A stretch of 56,027 nucleotides of DNA from Armatimonadota bacterium (GTDB taxonomy: Bacteria; Armatimonadota; Fimbriimonadia; Fimbriimonadales; Fimbriimonadaceae): the NCBI GenBank assembly GCA_025360125.1, contig JANYCU010000032.1, positions 1-56,027 on the forward strand, read 5' to 3'. Shown here one piece after another: positions 43,271-50,145 of this stretch. The translations under genes were made by a program, and so were the position numbers. How positions within the stretch are numbered: the stretch's first letter is position 1; the number at the start of each line of letters is the position of its first letter. The notes under the pieces were generated by a model, which saw nothing but the letters and a program-made list of their open reading frames with translations, made no database searches and had not been told where the DNA came from.

Positions 43271-43747
43271 CTACGCCTTGGATTTGGTCAGAACAATTCC
43301 GGTTTGAATCGAAGCCGGAAGAAGTTCGGTCTGTTGAGGGTGGAGCGTCAATTTCGTTCCATCCTTCGATAGCTCACCCGGCATGGAAACAGCGGCAGGC
43401 TTGCCATCTTGTTCAAGCCGCTTCCCACCCATCGAAGTCGTCAAAAGATTAACCACTCCCTCAGCGTAGACATAGGTACCTTCGGTCGCCGCAGCCGTGA
43501 AACTTTTGTCTGCGTTGAACTCGAACCAAAATGTCTTTGCTAAGCCAGTAAGAAATCCACCCTTATCGGCATCTTTGTGACTCGAAATAAACTCAGGATC
43601 GACGACCCATTTACCGACCAAAGGATTCGAAGAAGCCGGATTTGCCTTTGGATCCACCGGATCAGCAGGACCTTTAACGGGGTTGGGCTCGGTATGAGAG
43701 CACCCAGCCAGAGCGATCGCGACAAAAAAGGCACACTTCAATTTCAT
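43271..43747 (-). CDS. Lipoprotein of unknown function
   Basis: 158 aa. The signal (MKLKCAFFVAIALAGC) ends in a clear lipobox at Cys16. A proline/asparagine linker (~20-43) is followed by a small domain beginning NPLVGKWVVDPEF and containing FWFEFNADKSFTAAATEGTY and LSKDGTKLTLH. This GKW...F..D..F pattern is typical of lipocalin-like small beta-barrel domains in lipoproteins. Convergent with the S9 peptidase gene. A CACAAT hexamer stands 6 nt before the ATG. Confidence 0.75.
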   Translation of the reverse strand: MKLKCAFFVAIALAGCSHTEPNPVKGPADPVDPKANPASSNPLVGKWVVDPEFISSHKDADKGGFLTGLAKTFWFEFNADKSFTAAATEGTYVYAEGVVNLLTTSMGGKRLEQDGKPAAVSMPGELSKDGTKLTLHPQQTELLPASIQTGIVLTKSKA

Positions 43748-43813: not shown

Positions 43814-44962
43814 CTACTTGATCGCGTAGAGTTTGTAGTCGTTCGAACCTATGTAAACGGTTCCGTCGGCGGCAATGGCAGGCGAAGCATAAATGCTTTG
43901 ACCGGTCAAGAATGTCCATTTTCCGGTTCCGTTAGGATTCACCGCATGGAGCTTTCGGTCGTTCGAACCGACATAGATGGTTCCATCTGCACCAATGGCA
44001 GGCGACGAGTTAACGACGTCTCCGGTCGAATACGTCCACTTAAGGTTTCCGTTTGGATAGAGGGCATATAATTTGGCGTCAGTACTGCCAAAGTAAATGG
44101 TTCCGTCGGTCCCAATGGCCGCAAATCCACGGCATCCTCCGAGCCCACCATGGGTCCATTTCGCGTTGCCGTCGGGGTTAAAAGCGGTAAAGTTGCCGTT
44201 GTTCGATCCAATATAGATCGTGCCGTCTGGGGCAACCGAAGGCGAAGATTCGTTGCTGCCGCCGATGTTAACCGACCATTTTGGAGTCCCGTCTGGATTG
44301 ACCGCATACATTTTGCCATCGGTCGATACGACATAAACGGTTCCATCCGGAGCTAATGCCGGCGACGAGAGGATAATTCCTCCGGTCGCGACTGACCACT
44401 TCAAGGTGCCATCATCGTTGATCGCGTAAAGCTTTGAATCGCCTGAACCAATATAAATGACCCCGTTATAGTCGATCGCAGGTGAAGAGATGACTTCGCC
44501 GCCAGTAACAAACGGTGACGCCCATTTTGGCGTCCCATTTGAATTGATGGCGTAAACATTGTGGTTATTCGAGCCCACCACAATTGAATTATCAGGCGCA
44601 ATTGCTGGTGATGAATGAACGAATCCCGTTCCCATAAAGTTAGTGGCCCACTTCATGGTTCCGTTTGGTCGGACCGCATAGATTTTTCCGTCGAATGAAG
44701 GCAGGTAAACCGTGCCGTCACCGGCGATTGCCACCGATCCCTGAATTGCCGTACTGGTCAGAAATGGGGAACTCCATTTGGCCGCTCCGACTGCACCTTG
44801 GCCAATCCCCCGTCCCGAGTGGAATGGGTTGCTTCCGAATGTCAACCATTCTGGTTGGGGAGCGTCCTTCGGAACTCCTGCTCCACCACAGCCAATGGCA
44901 GTTATGAGAGTAATCGGGAGCAAAGCTCCAATTGCGATTTTGTTAATTGTCTTGATCTTCAT
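43814..44962 (-). CDS. PQQ-type beta-propeller lipoprotein
   Basis: 382 aa from the ATG at 44962, preceded by a GAGGAAAAA ribosome site; an upstream extension would run into the repeated promoter. The signal ends ITLITAIGC, a lipobox. The mature chain is about eight repeats of ~42 residues with the pattern NPDGTxKWSxxxGGxxxSSPAxAxDGTIYVGSxDxKLYA, a PQQ_2-like propeller, and the DNA itself is visibly repetitive. Such propellers are scaffolds for protein interactions in the envelope; no quinoprotein active site is seen. It is the third unit of the SARP-type operator array and differs in fold subtype from the two NHL units. Confidence 0.88.
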   Translation of the reverse strand: MKIKTINKIAIGALLPITLITAIGCGGAGVPKDAPQPEWLTFGSNPFHSGRGIGQGAVGAAKWSSPFLTSTAIQGSVAIAGDGTVYLPSFDGKIYAVRPNGTMKWATNFMGTGFVHSSPAIAPDNSIVVGSNNHNVYAINSNGTPKWASPFVTGGEVISSPAIDYNGVIYIGSGDSKLYAINDDGTLKWSVATGGIILSSPALAPDGTVYVVSTDGKMYAVNPDGTPKWSVNIGGSNESSPSVAPDGTIYIGSNNGNFTAFNPDGNAKWTHGGLGGCRGFAAIGTDGTIYFGSTDAKLYALYPNGNLKWTYSTGDVVNSSPAIGADGTIYVGSNDRKLHAVNPNGTGKWTFLTGQSIYASPAIAADGTVYIGSNDYKLYAIK

Positions 44963-44999
44963 TTTTTCCTCAAGTCGACTCTTTCGAGCTGATGAGAAG

Positions 45000-45041
45000 A
45001 ATTTACGACCGCATCGCAACACGGTCGTAACACCATCGCAA
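45000..45041 (-). promoter_or_regulatory. SARP-type operator/promoter, unit 3
   Basis: Reading the minus strand: TTGCGATGGTG, TTACGACCGTG and TTGCGATGCGG are three 11-bp direct repeats in a row (45041-45009), then TCG and TAAATT as -10 (45005-45000). Compared with units 1 and 2 several bases have changed, but the 11-bp phase and the distance to the -10 are the same. Confidence 0.7.
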
Positions 45042-45044
45042 TAC

Positions 45045-45078
45045 AAAAAGAGAGCGTGAATTTCACGCTCTCTTTCTT
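45045..45078 (-). terminator. Terminator of the NHL gene at 45096
   Basis: A stem of about 12 bp (AGAGAGCGTGAA / TTCACGCTCTCT) begins 18 nt after the stop and ends in TTTTTG on the minus strand, touching the operator of the next unit. Confidence 0.85.
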
Positions 45079-45095
45079 AAAAGGCAAAACCAATT

Positions 45096-46040
45096 CTATT
45101 CATGAACCGAGACATCTACCACTCCACGGAACTGGCCAGCTCCAATACCATGGCTGCCAAACGTCGTCCATCCGGCTCCAGCCATATCGTCGATTCTACA
45201 GACCCGATAGTTCCCTGCGTCTGCAATGAAAATATGTCCGGAGCTGTCGGTAGTGACGGCAAATGGTTGGTCGAGTTGACCAGCACCAGTACCCGGCGAC
45301 CCAAAGGTAGTCCATCCATCTCCGCCAATATTTCCCATGCGAACAATTCGACTATTGCCAATATCGGCTAGATAGATAGTTAGGTTGGGGGAGACATAGA
45401 CGTCATTGAGCCCTTGAAATTGATAAGTCCCTGTTCCAGTTGATCCCATTGAAGCGGGCAACGGATCGGTCATGGATCCAAAACGAAACAATCGGTTAGA
45501 TGACTTCATCGTAATATACATCGTGTCTGCCGAGTCAACCGCAATCGATGAGGGAGCATCCGTTGGGTTATTGGCCCAAGGAATCATGTCGAGGACGGTC
45601 CAATTCGTTCCAGTCAGGTCGTCAATTCTAACGATTCGCCGGTTACTGAAGTCGGCGACGTAGATCCGCCCAACTGAATCAAACGCAATTTTCGTTATGG
45701 TGCTGAATTGGTTGACGCCGGAACCGAACGTCCCAAATACCTGACGGTTCGGTGAGCCAGGCGACGGCACCATGATGATTTGGCCATTGTTTGTTCCAAT
45801 GTACAATCTTCCTAGTTTGTCGAATGCCTGGCAATAAGTATAAGCATTTGTCGTTTCTTCCTTTTCGTTCGCACCGTTGATGTTCGTAAAGTACTTGACA
45901 GAACTGCCGTCATAGGTTGAGACATACATGCCTTTCGGGAATGCCGACGAATTTTGGGCGCCGCCGGATCCGCCGCAACCTGCTAATAGGGCAATGGCGA
46001 GGGCAAGGGCGACGAGTTTGGTTGATTTGTTGATCTTCAT
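45096..46040 (-). CDS. NHL-repeat beta-propeller lipoprotein
   Basis: 314 aa. A lipoprotein signal (KLVALALAIALLAGC) is followed by an NHL propeller with blades such as YCQAFDKLGRLYIGTNNGQI, IAFDSVGRIYVADFSNRRIV and VTTDSSGHIFIADAGNYRVC. It is a clear paralogue of the protein at 46212-47138, with shared CQAFDKLGRLYIGT, FGSMTD/FNSMTD and GAGWTTFGSHG/GTGWVMFGSHG. NHL propellers usually bind proteins, RNA or glycans; on a lipoprotein an envelope binding role is likely. The ribosome site GAGGAAAAA is the same as in the two neighbour units. Confidence 0.85.
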   Translation of the reverse strand: MKINKSTKLVALALAIALLAGCGGSGGAQNSSAFPKGMYVSTYDGSSVKYFTNINGANEKEETTNAYTYCQAFDKLGRLYIGTNNGQIIMVPSPGSPNRQVFGTFGSGVNQFSTITKIAFDSVGRIYVADFSNRRIVRIDDLTGTNWTVLDMIPWANNPTDAPSSIAVDSADTMYITMKSSNRLFRFGSMTDPLPASMGSTGTGTYQFQGLNDVYVSPNLTIYLADIGNSRIVRMGNIGGDGWTTFGSPGTGAGQLDQPFAVTTDSSGHIFIADAGNYRVCRIDDMAGAGWTTFGSHGIGAGQFRGVVDVSVHE

Positions 46041-46078
46041 TTTTTCCTCAAGTCGGCTCTTTCGAGCTGATTGAGAAG

Positions 46079-46120
46079 AATTTACGACCCTATCGCAACA
46101 CAGTCATAACACTATCGCAA
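46079..46120 (-). promoter_or_regulatory. SARP-type operator/promoter, unit 2
   Basis: Minus strand: TTGCGATAGTG, TTATGACTGTG, TTGCGATAGGG (46120-46088), then TCG and TAAATT (-10, 46084-46079). The repeats are identical to unit 1. A GCTC-GAAA-GAGC hairpin lies at 46056-46067 in the leader. Confidence 0.75.
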
Positions 46121-46123
46121 TAC

Positions 46124-46152
46124 AAAAAAAGAGCGTGAAAATCACGCTCTTT
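46124..46152 (-). terminator. Terminator of the NHL gene at 46212
   Basis: An 11-bp stem AAAGAGCGTGA / TCACGCTCTTT with loop AAA, continuing in a T-run on the minus strand that touches the operator of unit 2. Confidence 0.85.
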
Positions 46153-46211
46153 CGTTCTGATCGGCCAAATCTCTGGGGGCTGCATGCAACCCCCTTGAGG
46201 ATTGGTCCAGA

Positions 46212-47138
46212 TCAATGAACCAAAATGTTTTGCGGGATCATGAATTGTCCCGTCCCGGTGCCGTGACTACCAAACATCACCCAGCCAGTGCCGACCATAT
46301 CATCCAATTGGCAAAGGCGGGAATTACCCGCGTCCATAACGAAAATTTTCCCAGAGTTGTCAGTAGTGACGCTTGAGGGTCGAAAGAATTGGTTGACTCC
46401 ATTCCCAATCACGCCAAATGAAATCCAACCGGCACCAGACATATCATTAAGGCGAACAATTCGGTCATTGTCTTGGTCAACGATATAGATCTTTCCATCA
46501 GAGCCGATGTGAACGTCCGATGGTTCTTTGAATTTTCCGACCGTACTTCCGACGCTTCCGTACGAGACTGGAGAGGAGTCGGTCATGGAGTTAAATCTTA
46601 ATATCCTGCCTGCACTTCGCGCAACCACGTAGATTCGGTTAGATGAGTCCAAGGCAATAGAAACCGGGCCGTCGGTCGCGTCGATCGTGAAGGGGGTTAA
46701 ATCCATTTCGATCATGTTCTTGCCAGTGACGTCATCGGCCCGAATCACCTTTCGACCTGAAAGGTCGGCAACATAGATCTTATTATCAGAATCGAAGGCA
46801 ATTTTGATGTAATAGCCGCCGGAAATTGGCATCGTCTCGAAATTCACTGCATTTGGCGATGGAATCATCATAACTTTGCCACCCCACGTTCCTATGTAAA
46901 GTCTTCCGAGCTTGTCAAAGGCTTGGCAAAGTGGTTTGTCTGGGGAAAAGTCCCTTACACCTTCGTTTGCGCCAGTCATGTCGCTGAAATACTTCGTGAC
47001 TTGAGCTCCATAGTCAGCGACATAGAGCCCGTGTTCAAACTGGGGGGTGGGTTGTGTAGCAACGGATCCGCCGCACCCAGCCAAAATGGCAACTGAAAGG
47101 GCTCCGATGACGAATAGGTTTGTTTTTTTGATCTTCAT
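46212..47138 (-). CDS. NHL-repeat beta-propeller lipoprotein (paralogue)
   Basis: 308 aa. The signal LFVIGALSVAILAGC gives a lipobox, followed by an NHL propeller (LCQAFDKLGRLYIGTWGGKV, IAFDSDNKIYVADLSGRKVI, VTTDNSGKIFVMDAGNSRLC). It matches the protein at 45096-46040 along its whole length, so the two arose by tandem duplication that also copied the promoter and leader. It is the unit closest to the SARP-like regulator, starting about 90 nt beyond the regulator's stop with no terminator in between, so some transcripts may read from the regulator gene into it. Confidence 0.85.
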   Translation of the reverse strand: MKIKKTNLFVIGALSVAILAGCGGSVATQPTPQFEHGLYVADYGAQVTKYFSDMTGANEGVRDFSPDKPLCQAFDKLGRLYIGTWGGKVMMIPSPNAVNFETMPISGGYYIKIAFDSDNKIYVADLSGRKVIRADDVTGKNMIEMDLTPFTIDATDGPVSIALDSSNRIYVVARSAGRILRFNSMTDSSPVSYGSVGSTVGKFKEPSDVHIGSDGKIYIVDQDNDRIVRLNDMSGAGWISFGVIGNGVNQFFRPSSVTTDNSGKIFVMDAGNSRLCQLDDMVGTGWVMFGSHGTGTGQFMIPQNILVH

Positions 47139-47175
47139 TTTTCCTCAAGTCGGCTCTTTCGAGCTGATTGAGGAA

Positions 47176-47217
47176 AATTTACGACCCTATCGCAACACAG
47201 TCATAACACTATCGCAA
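47176..47217 (-). promoter_or_regulatory. SARP-type operator/promoter, unit 1
   Basis: Minus strand: TTGCGATAGTG (47217-47207), TTATGACTGTG (47206-47196), TTGCGATAGGG (47195-47185), then TCG and TAAATT as -10 (47181-47176). Repeats one and three are 22 bp apart, two helical turns, and the last TTGCGAT heptamer ends 7 nt before the -10; both fit SARP-class sites. A GCTC-GAAA-GAGC leader hairpin is at 47153-47164. Confidence 0.75.
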
Positions 47218-47229
47218 TACAAAACAAAT

Positions 47230-49959
47230 TTATAAAAGTCGCATTACGAGGGCCCGGGCTTGGGCAATTGCAAAGGCATCCGTCCATGATTCACCTTCGA
47301 TCGCGAGCGGACCAAAGTCTGAGGTCAATTCTTCTGAAAAGGTCCTCAGAGACTCGTTGTAAAGCGCCATAATCGGTTCCGCCAAATTGGGTCCCAGCCT
47401 CTGGCGGCGAGATCGCTCGTACCCAATTAATCCCGCGCAGACCTCGGCGTCCGAATGGCAAAGCTCGCCGTGTGCAACAACGGTAATCAAAGCCCAGATA
47501 CAACTGGTGGCGACAAATACGCTTTGACAAACGTAATTGCTCTCGAATAGGACTTGAAAATAGGGGAGTGCCTCTGTCGCCTTCCCTACCCAGATACTGC
47601 TATTCGAGAAGTGAAGGGTTGCCCAGACCAACTCTCGTTCTAAGTTTGCGCCAGTGCTTAACTCAATAAGTGCCCTGAAGATGTCTCTTGCTTCCTCATA
47701 GCGCTTAATAAGGGCGAGAACCTGCCCTGTTCCTAACATACAGACGAGGTTCGTATTGGCACGAGGCGCAGGATCGGAAACGACGTTTGCCAACTCAAGC
47801 GCACGCTCGGCGCAGTCGGTACGTTCCCCTACGCAGATAAGTGGAAGCAATTGGTTCAACAAAAACTGCTGAGTAAATCCGTCAGTGGATCGAGAAATCA
47901 CTTCGAATAGGCTCGAAATGTGCTCATCGACCTCTTGTTTTGATCCAAAGTTGAGAGTTGCATGGGCCGAGAAACCGAGCATCAAATCCTGATCGTTGCT
48001 CGAAATGGCCCCGGAAGCCGAGAGTACTTTAACAATTCGGGCCCATTCGACAAGAACGCCGGAAGCTTCGGCCAGAATCCATGTTCTCATTAAGAATTCG
48101 AAGCCATGGACACTAAGCTCTTCAAAATCCGCGCAGGACTGAAATGCGAGCCGAATATTGGAAAGGTCGACCTTAAAGTGAGAGATCGCTTCGGACACTC
48201 CTTGGAATCTGTCCCTGAACCCCAGAATTTCTTGATAATAATGATGGAAATGGCTCTTTCTGAGCTCGATTGATAGCTGTTCATCCACCCTCTCCAAGCA
48301 GTACTCCTTGACGATTGGAAAAAGCGAGAAGCGGCGCGGAGTGGTACCAGACTGTGGTCGAACCACCGCTAGGCGACATAACTCTTCAACCAACGTCCCC
48401 GCGGTTTTAACTTTTGTAACCGGGCCAACATCATCGATAGTCCATGATCCGGGAAAAACGGTCAAGCGAACGAGGAGCTCTTGGGCGGTAACGCTGAGGT
48501 GGTCAAAACTCCAACGGATCGTTTCTCTGAGTGATAAGTGCCGAGCGGGCAGGTTCAGTTTTTCGTTAGCCAACCCAACTACACTTCCCTCAAGGCTCTC
48601 CCTCAGCTCTCGGGCCGAAAGATATGACATTTGCGAAACGGCCAATTCGATTGCGAGCGGGATGCCATCGAGCAGAGTTGCGAGTCGCGACAACTCCGCA
48701 ATTTCAGTGTCGTCCGGAGCATATGCATGATCAAAACTTCGAATTCGATGCATTAAAAGTTGAACCGACGGGCACTCCACTATCTGAGCCGACGAAGATT
48801 CTGCCGGTATTTCGAGCGGGCGAAGGGCCAACTCTTGTTCGCCATGAATGCCAAGCCTTACCCGAGATGTGGCGATGATCCAAATATTCTTGCTTCCACT
48901 CACCATCGACCGAATGAGTTCAGATATGTCCGGCAACAAATGCTCGCAGTTGTCGAGCACCAGCAAAGTAGGTTCGGCATCAAAAGTCGGTCCCAATACT
49001 TTGCCAAGATCGATCCCTGGAGCAATGACTACTTCCAACGTCTGAGACAAAGTGCTCTTGAACTGCTCAGCCGATTTCAAATCAGCCAAACCAATAAGCA
49101 AACATCGCTGGAATTCGTTGGCCGGAACCCGCATCGCATATTCGGAAACCAGCCGAGTTTTGCCCGAACCACCCGGTCCTGTGATCGAGAGCAATCTTGT
49201 CGGTTTGTCTCGGCCAATCATCGAATCAAGATATTCAAGCTCCTTTTGGCGACCATGAAAACTGTCGATCGGTCGACCGAGCGAAATCCAAACTTGGGGC
49301 TCGGCAGATTCTCGCTCTTCAATGGGCTGTTCAAAGGTGGTTTGATCACGCCATGCTCGGCTGGGTTTCAATCCCAATGACTTTTGAAGCCTTTGTTCAA
49401 AGTCGATTTTGAGTGCAACTGATTCGGCATCTCGCGCTAATTGTCGAAGTGCATTGAATTTGCAAAGATGCAGTGACTCGTCGAGCGCCCCGAACCTAAT
49501 GCCAATATCCGCGACGACTATTGCCCGCGCAAAGTCCTTGGCAATGATGGCGACCTCACATTTTGCGATACTTAACGAGAGTAATTCGGTTGTGATGCCC
49601 AGCCGGATACTGTGGATCCATTCCTCCGTAAAACCCTCCGCAAATGGTTGGGTTGCTATCACGGCGGCGCTTTCTAGGCTGGCGAAGTCGTCCTCAGCTT
49701 TTATTCGAAGCATCAGTTCTGACAACTCAGTGAGGTCGATCAAGCAATCCGACGTCTGAATTTGGATGGTCAGGCGATTGACGTTGAGAGGAGGTTCTCC
49801 GCCGGCATCCCGAAAATGCTTGTTTAGCAGAGCGAGCACTTGTCGAAAGCAATCGCGGGCGATCTCGATGTACTCGCCCGGCCAAAGGCTTTCGGCGATC
49901 GCGTCGCGCGAATGGACCTTGTTCGGCTGCGAAGCAAGGATCAGAAGGAGCTGGGCCAC
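47230..49959 (-). CDS. SARP/AfsR-like transcriptional regulator with BTAD, ATPase and helical-repeat domains
   Basis: At least 909 aa. A winged helix plus BTAD domain covers ~1-200. A STAND/NB-ARC ATPase follows with Walker A GPGGSGKT at 261-268 and Walker B TLLVLDNCEHLL, then TPR-like helices to the end. The first canonical start in frame is the GTG at 49959, but the upstream frame still reads like the missing first part of the domain: WRIQLLGDPRVEFYGRP then TGPFKTKR (50034-49960). No ATG, GTG or TTG occurs in that frame back to the stop at 50140. The true start is therefore non-canonical, or the gene is damaged. It most likely activates the three propeller-lipoprotein units directly downstream, whose promoters carry 11-bp-phased repeats. 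Confidence 0.88.
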   Translation of the reverse strand: MAQLLLILASQPNKVHSRDAIAESLWPGEYIEIARDCFRQVLALLNKHFRDAGGEPPLNVNRLTIQIQTSDCLIDLTELSELMLRIKAEDDFASLESAAVIATQPFAEGFTEEWIHSIRLGITTELLSLSIAKCEVAIIAKDFARAIVVADIGIRFGALDESLHLCKFNALRQLARDAESVALKIDFEQRLQKSLGLKPSRAWRDQTTFEQPIEERESAEPQVWISLGRPIDSFHGRQKELEYLDSMIGRDKPTRLLSITGPGGSGKTRLVSEYAMRVPANEFQRCLLIGLADLKSAEQFKSTLSQTLEVVIAPGIDLGKVLGPTFDAEPTLLVLDNCEHLLPDISELIRSMVSGSKNIWIIATSRVRLGIHGEQELALRPLEIPAESSSAQIVECPSVQLLMHRIRSFDHAYAPDDTEIAELSRLATLLDGIPLAIELAVSQMSYLSARELRESLEGSVVGLANEKLNLPARHLSLRETIRWSFDHLSVTAQELLVRLTVFPGSWTIDDVGPVTKVKTAGTLVEELCRLAVVRPQSGTTPRRFSLFPIVKEYCLERVDEQLSIELRKSHFHHYYQEILGFRDRFQGVSEAISHFKVDLSNIRLAFQSCADFEELSVHGFEFLMRTWILAEASGVLVEWARIVKVLSASGAISSNDQDLMLGFSAHATLNFGSKQEVDEHISSLFEVISRSTDGFTQQFLLNQLLPLICVGERTDCAERALELANVVSDPAPRANTNLVCMLGTGQVLALIKRYEEARDIFRALIELSTGANLERELVWATLHFSNSSIWVGKATEALPYFQVLFESNYVCQSVFVATSCIWALITVVAHGELCHSDAEVCAGLIGYERSRRQRLGPNLAEPIMALYNESLRTFSEELTSDFGPLAIEGESWTDAFAIAQARALVMRLL

Positions 49960-50117
49960 TCGCTTGGTCTTGAATGGTCCGGTTGGCCGACCATAAAACT
50001 CAACCCTTGGGTCACCAAGAAGCTGAATCCTCCACGGGACCTGAGAGTGTTCTTGAGCCTGAGCAACTTGACCTTTGATCTTAGGCCAGTTTACTTGCCA
50101 AAGATAAGCACCTGTTG

Positions 50118-50145
50118 TTATTCGCTCCGCCCAATCGACTCACCC
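50118..50145. repeat. Dispersed 28-bp repeat, copy 1
   Basis: TTATTCGCTCCGCCCAATCG followed by ACTCACCC is found again at 55822-55849 with three differences. This copy spans the stop codon of the DNA polymerase gene and the region where the SARP-like gene lacks a start; the other lies next to an insertion-sequence end. Confidence 0.55.

Follow-up and report, generated by a model that had tools for sequence, protein, structure and literature searches.

The DNA analysed here, a stretch of 56,027 nucleotides that is called the window throughout, belongs to a member of the Fimbriimonadaceae in the phylum Armatimonadota, not the Actinobacteria, and it carries on its minus strand the gene for a large regulator of the SARP/AfsR type followed by three genes for beta-propeller lipoproteins, each with its own leader and promoter (Table 1). 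An earlier note on this DNA had proposed a dedicated SARP-lipoprotein system outside actinobacterial secondary metabolism, and the host is indeed not an actinobacterium. The papers found present SARPs as activators of antibiotic clusters in Actinobacteria, their usual role being in antibiotic or secondary metabolism. The annotated genes of the window included no visible biosynthetic cluster, and the box-bearing genes adjoining the regulator encode exported propellers.

Table 1. Features of the regulator and lipoprotein locus, in their order along the minus strand
Feature	Position	Strand	Description
Large SARP/AfsR-type regulator	47230..50046	-	OmpR-like winged helix, BTAD, P-loop NTPase, long C-terminal part; start codon uncertain
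Box and core promoter of gene 1 (module 1)	47176..47219	-	Predicted SARP box, three 11-bp repeats and TAAATT; heptamers 47219-47213, 47208-47202, 47197-47191; -10 at 47181-47176
Leader of gene 1	47139..47175	-	Conserved; hairpin AATCAGCTCGAAAGAGCCGACTT, then GAGGAAAAATG
Gene 1	46212..47138	-	NHL-repeat beta-propeller lipoprotein, 308 aa, lipobox LAGC
Intrinsic terminator hairpin after gene 1, ahead of the gene 2 box	46126..46153	-	
Box and core promoter of gene 2 (module 2)	46079..46122	-	Predicted SARP box; heptamers 46122-46116, 46111-46105, 46100-46094; -10 at 46084-46079
Leader of gene 2	46041..46078	-	Same leader as before gene 1
Gene 2	45096..46040	-	NHL-repeat beta-propeller lipoprotein, 314 aa, lipobox LAGC
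Intrinsic terminator-like hairpin after gene 2, ahead of the gene 3 box	45047..45077	-	
Box and core promoter of gene 3 (module 3)	45000..45043	-	Predicted SARP box, plan unchanged, letters variant; heptamers 45043-45037, 45032-45026, 45021-45015; -10 at 45005-45000
Leader of gene 3	44963..44999	-	Same leader as before gene 1
Gene 3	43814..44962	-	PQQ-type beta-propeller lipoprotein, 382 aa, lipobox AIGC

The regulator and the lipoprotein genes

The assignment of the regulator to the large SARPs is supported by a family profile, by Pfam matches in its relatives and by the predicted fold, in agreement with the earlier note, which had placed a SARP/AfsR-like gene directly upstream of the lipoprotein genes; the regulator gene ends about a dozen nucleotides before the first repeat. 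The profile, made of 41 SARP domains (the window protein and 40 family relatives), matched AfsR (8k60, E 2.7e-29) and EmbR (2fez, E 1e-23) among the PDB sequences, and it aligns with AfsR over positions 5-271. Pfam recognised BTAD in 39 and Trans_reg_C in 36 of the 41 aligned SARP domains; the window protein by itself does not reach the BTAD model, and its winged helix matches Trans_reg_C with an E-value of 3e-4 at 21.2 bits against a gathering cut-off of 26.2. When the 270 residues of the SARP part were modelled with AlphaFold2 (pLDDT 92), the best structural alignment was that with AfsR (Z 18.7, 234 residues, 4.1 A), and EmbR gave Z 18.1; the alignment with AfsR and EmbR covers residues 3-242, whereas OmpR-type domains score well below these two and cover the winged helix only. 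The NTPase of the window protein matches AAA_16, AAA_22 and nSTAND_NTPase5 with E-values of 3e-6 to 4e-4, below the curated cut-offs, and the sequence holds the NTPase motifs GPGGSGKTRL (P-loop) and LLVLDNCEH. The C-terminal residues, about 350 in number, gave no Pfam TPR match.

The beginning of the regulator gene is unusual, as the regulator frame contains no canonical start codon (ATG, GTG or TTG) upstream of 49959, which lies within the winged helix, and around the expected start the frame offers no codons but ATA, ATC and ATT. An unusual start codon, stop read-through from dinB and an assembly error are possible explanations. At 49959-50142 (minus strand) the regulator frame abuts the dinB stop codon with zero gap and in a shared frame. 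A single-protein scan of named genomes found no close orthologs of the regulator. A link to anti-phage defence was considered and rejected: PADLOC returned no match for the regulator, and one of the propellers weakly resembled part of PD-T4-6 (E 8e-5).

Strong terminator-like hairpins lie between modules 2 and 3 and the gene before each of them, so each promoter probably gives rise to its own transcript. In BLASTP comparison, the homology of the gene 3 protein with those of genes 1 and 2 is confined to the signal peptide, and gene 3 has the promoter plan and the leader of genes 1 and 2 despite this unrelated protein. After gene 3 follows a 158-aa gene (43271-43747, minus strand) with a lipoprotein-like start, without a Pfam match and without a box.

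In the leaders of all three genes a short hairpin can form just 5′ of the ribosome site, part of which is kept in a genome of the same genus (G024, described below); the fold is strong in gene 1 (z -4.7) and weaker in genes 2 and 3 and in G024. We do not claim that this hairpin masks the ribosome site, as its outer strand would fall upstream of the expected transcription start. A role of the leader RNA as a wider element was rejected, since the other matches inspected in the same genome (on contigs C39 and C52) lie inside coding DNA and are attributable to chance.

Triple repeats and core promoters

The earlier note had described a triple 11-mer before each of the three propeller-lipoprotein genes, and all three were located on the minus strand. 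In the heptamer register NNTTGCG, which was chosen as the one fitting the relatives, module 1 reads TATTGCG-ATAG-TGTTATG-ACTG-TGTTGCG-ATAGGGTCG-TAAATT. The distance of 7 nt from the last heptamer to the -10, as given earlier, stands when counted from the heptamer TTGCGAT, and it becomes 9 nt in the register shared with the relatives. Two exact copies of the pattern TTGCGATA-N14-TTGCGATA are present in the window and none in 100 shuffles, and the genome search that had been suggested for the repeat pattern, run with the relaxed form TTGCGATNNNGTTNNGACNNNGTTGCGAT at up to 3 mismatches, gave 3 matches in the 4.13-Mb genome, namely the three window sites before the lipoprotein propeller genes and no others. 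A genome-wide regulon is therefore ruled out, as the box has no further genomic copy at up to 3 mismatches, and the idea of a dedicated system agrees with this whole-genome confinement of the box to one locus. A phage origin of the promoter was also rejected, phage records being without a match.

The arrangement has the geometry of known SARP boxes, as had been claimed for it: an 11-bp period, a heptamer with a 4-nt spacer, and the downstream repeat by the -10 (PMC10936776, PMC5930380). SARP sites are generally direct repeats at 11 or 22 bp, and those of the AfsR box start at -40 and -29 (PMC10936776); when the -10 is placed at -12, the repeats of the window and of the five family loci with the same geometry (see below) fall at about -39/-40 and -28/-29, as in the AfsR box. 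The operator of PimR consists of three heptamers (CGGCAAG) with 4-nt spacers, which is the preferred repeat number of PimR (PMC5930380). The window promoters have a fair -10 and no recognisable -35 hexamer, a sigma-70 match being absent on that strand. Since a box over the -35 region would also block the polymerase, the regulator might bind it to repress the propeller genes instead of activating them; we regard this as very improbable, because a fair -10 that lacks a recognisable -35 hexamer is what SARP-activated promoters look like, and because the repeats stand in the same phase to the -10 as those of AfsR, which is an activator and engages sigma region 4 (PMC10936776).

The repeats are also kept, in other letters, in the sole close ortholog that was found, so that the conservation which the earlier note had asked about in relatives with this regulator was seen in one genome, G024. 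Its regulator is the closest in the family (37% and 31% identity in two frames), with a reading frame split by a frameshift and a contig that ends within the gene. Outside the window, gene 2 likewise has its closest relative in G024 (39%), on a 5.3-kb contig that bears at its end a SARP-like C-terminus, a triple repeat, a similar leader and an NHL lipoprotein; we infer the adjacency of the regulator and NHL contigs from an overlap of 6 bases only. After the TAG stop the G024 box reads CTTTGCG-CTCA-CTTTGCG-CCTA-CTTTGCG-GTCTGGTCG-TATCTT, in which the letters of the repeat differ from those of the window but the 11-bp period and the 9-nt gap to the -10 are retained. Aligned to the window promoters, it has TTGCG, GGTCGTA and the leader TTGAGGAAA in common with them, and many other letters differ. 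The triple repeat is unique within the G024 genome, and an exact triple heptamer at 11-bp steps would be expected by chance in about 5 per ten million such regions, by our own estimate of 4^-14 x ~120 positions.

This ortholog bears on the origin of the likeness between the modules. Promoter and leader of modules 1 and 2 are 90-95% identical, and 96% across the full 98-nt block, far closer than the coding DNA, and the copied unit extends into the signal peptide; the promoters could accordingly be recent copies of a cassette of promoter, leader and signal peptide, with repeats that have no regulatory meaning. We consider this highly improbable, as the proteins of genes 1 and 2 are 46% identical and their third codon positions match in 24 of 77 conserved 4-6-fold codons, which is near saturation, so that a neutral promoter would have diverged as well, unless gene conversion acted on the promoter only; moreover, the G024 triple repeat has other letters with the same period and the same gap to the -10. 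With genes that have diverged and promoters and leaders that remain alike, the promoter has therefore been kept constant, whether through selection or through gene conversion confined to that stretch.

The 11-bp repeat at other SARP loci of the family

The survey covered 79 further SARP-NTPase genes from genomes of Fimbriimonadaceae. For each of them, positions -40 to +150 relative to the stop codon of the regulator were scanned for exact heptamer repeats at lags 8 to 44. Such repeats occurred at lag 11 in 13 of the 79 (other lags: mean 1.35, maximum 5), a count whose members are not all independent, since nine of the regulators form one clade (L066, L072, L074, L077, L079, L081, L100, L102 and L103); controls taken within the gene body and at distances of 1 and 2 kb downstream gave 0-2 at lag 11. 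The next gene is co-directional in 12 of the 13 lag-11 cases, and among the regulators with a co-directional next gene lag 11 is found in 12 of 56, where other lags average 0.91. The 11-bp rule is a partial one, as most of the regulators (66 of 79) have no exact heptamer repeat of this period following their stop codon. For SARP loci outside the family it was unconvincing (lag 11 in 5 of 30, against a maximum of 4 elsewhere).

A scan of the gap from TGT-N8-TGT to TANNNT gave matches solely at 13 and 14 nt, and TGT-N8-TGT-N13/14-TANNNT was found in the window, L058, L065 and L082, and in L081 and L077. By a crude hydrophobicity rule, exported-like proteins are enriched among the genes next to SARP regulators, with 23 of 56 as compared with 149 of 773 other ORFs. 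The letters of the box vary from one regulator lineage to another. Members of the nine-regulator clade stand mostly beside DUF1559-type pilin-like genes, called by their N-terminal signature, and most of them have TGTTGAC-like doublets at 11-bp spacing. In L120 (G017:C135) a second large SARP-like gene with a LRLFGSVEIRVHGIPLPHLKSRKGLWLLA-type start begins 4 nt past the stop of the first, giving a tandem regulator pair. The SARP locus of another genome of the family, G004, is common to CP075364.1 of Fimbriimonadaceae bacterium ACE_ARM1, which is the basis for naming the family Fimbriimonadaceae, of the phylum Armatimonadota.

One of these loci, in G056, repeats the whole plan of the window, a regulator followed by box-bearing tandem propeller genes: its box TGTCAGA-N4-TGTCAGA has exactly 2 copies genome-wide, one before each of a tandem pair of exported PD40-propeller genes that come immediately after the regulator, and a GC-rich hairpin with a T-run precedes the second copy. 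In G072 the box is confined to the locus of its regulator. Between this regulator and a divergent exported gene lies a strong triple 11-mer, GATCCTTGAGG/GATCCGTGGGG/GATCCTTGGGC (L058:11371-11414), and a doublet is present downstream of the regulator in addition. A paralog in the window's own genome (L049) has TTTCACG/TGTCACG/TGTCACG at 22-bp spacing before an exported gene; the gene behind that one encodes a lactonase-type propeller whose start is lipoprotein-like. Upstream of this paralog there is also a triple 11-mer, TTAGCGG/TTAGGCA/TTAGCGG, with no clear -10 (L049:8117-8149, contig C56, minus strand), possibly the box of another regulator or a chance occurrence.

Tandem winged helices read 11-bp direct repeats before the -10 in the PhoB/OmpR pho-box systems too, PhoB boxes having the same 11-bp period; these systems differ from the window in a two-component receiver that takes the place of BTAD and NTPase, and in a regulon that is global and not tied to a single locus. 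The repeats could thus be real operators of another response regulator of the OmpR/PhoB type, beside which the SARP gene lies by coincidence, since OmpR-type winged helices share the fold and since, in Streptomyces, boxes for PhoP overlap with those for AfsR (PMC10972967). This is very improbable in our view, because the box is present only beside the window regulator, the G024 box with its other letters lies directly 3′ of its own regulator, and the 11-bp peak of the family stands at SARP stop codons and is absent from the control stretches. The variation of box letters with regulator lineage likewise argues against it, being what is expected if each box is cognate to the neighbouring regulator.

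Proposed circuit and its meaning

Based on these findings, we propose, with a probability of roughly four in five, that the locus is a self-contained, locus-dedicated circuit of the AfsR-type SARP outside the Actinobacteria with exported propellers as its output. First, the regulator may sense a signal through its NTPase and C-terminal domains, by which ATP and some ligand or partner presumably control it. The SARP domains, consisting of the winged helix and BTAD, would then align side by side on the 11-bp repeats, with one protomer per repeat, and, bound just upstream of the -10, could recruit RNA polymerase to promoters without a -35, in the manner of AfsR. The exported beta-propeller lipoproteins would thereby be expressed from three separate promoters, of which two are insulated by the terminators of the preceding gene. 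Since the box is private to the locus, the regulator would serve only its neighbours. The architecture and fold of the regulator, the repeats with their spacing and genomic uniqueness, the plan retained in the ortholog and the 11-bp peak at the stop codons of family regulators are observations; the binding of the box, a positive and not a negative direction of control, the inducing signal and the function of the propellers are inferences.

The nearest known counterpart is AfsR-afsS of Streptomyces coelicolor (PDB 8k60, 8hvr), where AfsR activates the adjacent afsS (PMC10972967). It resembles the window in the SARP-NTPase-C-terminal layout of about 950-1000 aa, in a target adjoining the regulator and in 11-bp direct repeats over the -35 region. 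However, AfsR-afsS has two repeats and the small regulator AfsS as its output, whereas the window has three repeats, three target promoters in a row and exported beta-propeller lipoproteins, and it differs further in its phylum, Armatimonadota, and in the letters of the box. No AfsK-like kinase was seen among the annotated genes adjoining the window locus. The operators of PimR and the SARP-LAL regulators are like those of the window in their three heptamers with 4-nt spacers, but the PimR operator is clear of the -35 box and the target of PimR is another regulator gene, pimM (PMC5930380). EmbR of Mycobacterium tuberculosis (PDB 2fez) shares the winged helix and BTAD fold with the window regulator, and carries an FHA domain in place of its NTPase and long C-terminal part.

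A wider reading, for and against which we see about equal chances, is that the large paralogous set of AfsR-type STAND-SARPs in the Fimbriimonadaceae consists of one-regulator-one-locus switches, in which every regulator reads a heptamer code of its own at a promoter with 11-bp repeats located immediately behind its gene, and whose outputs are mostly exported, namely NHL, PQQ, PD40 and RCC1 propellers and DUF1559 pilin-like proteins. In the literature searched, we found no published work on such regulators in Armatimonadota. The SARP architecture and promoter grammar occur in this phylum many times per genome, before surface propellers, and, if the wider reading is true, they would form a layer of surface-protein switching unlike the SARP biology of Streptomyces, together with a natural catalogue of matched regulator-box pairs. 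Such pairs, with diverged letters and fixed geometry, would open the DNA-recognition code of SARPs to direct tests, would make SARP targets predictable by position alone, and would give a handle on gene regulation in Armatimonadota.
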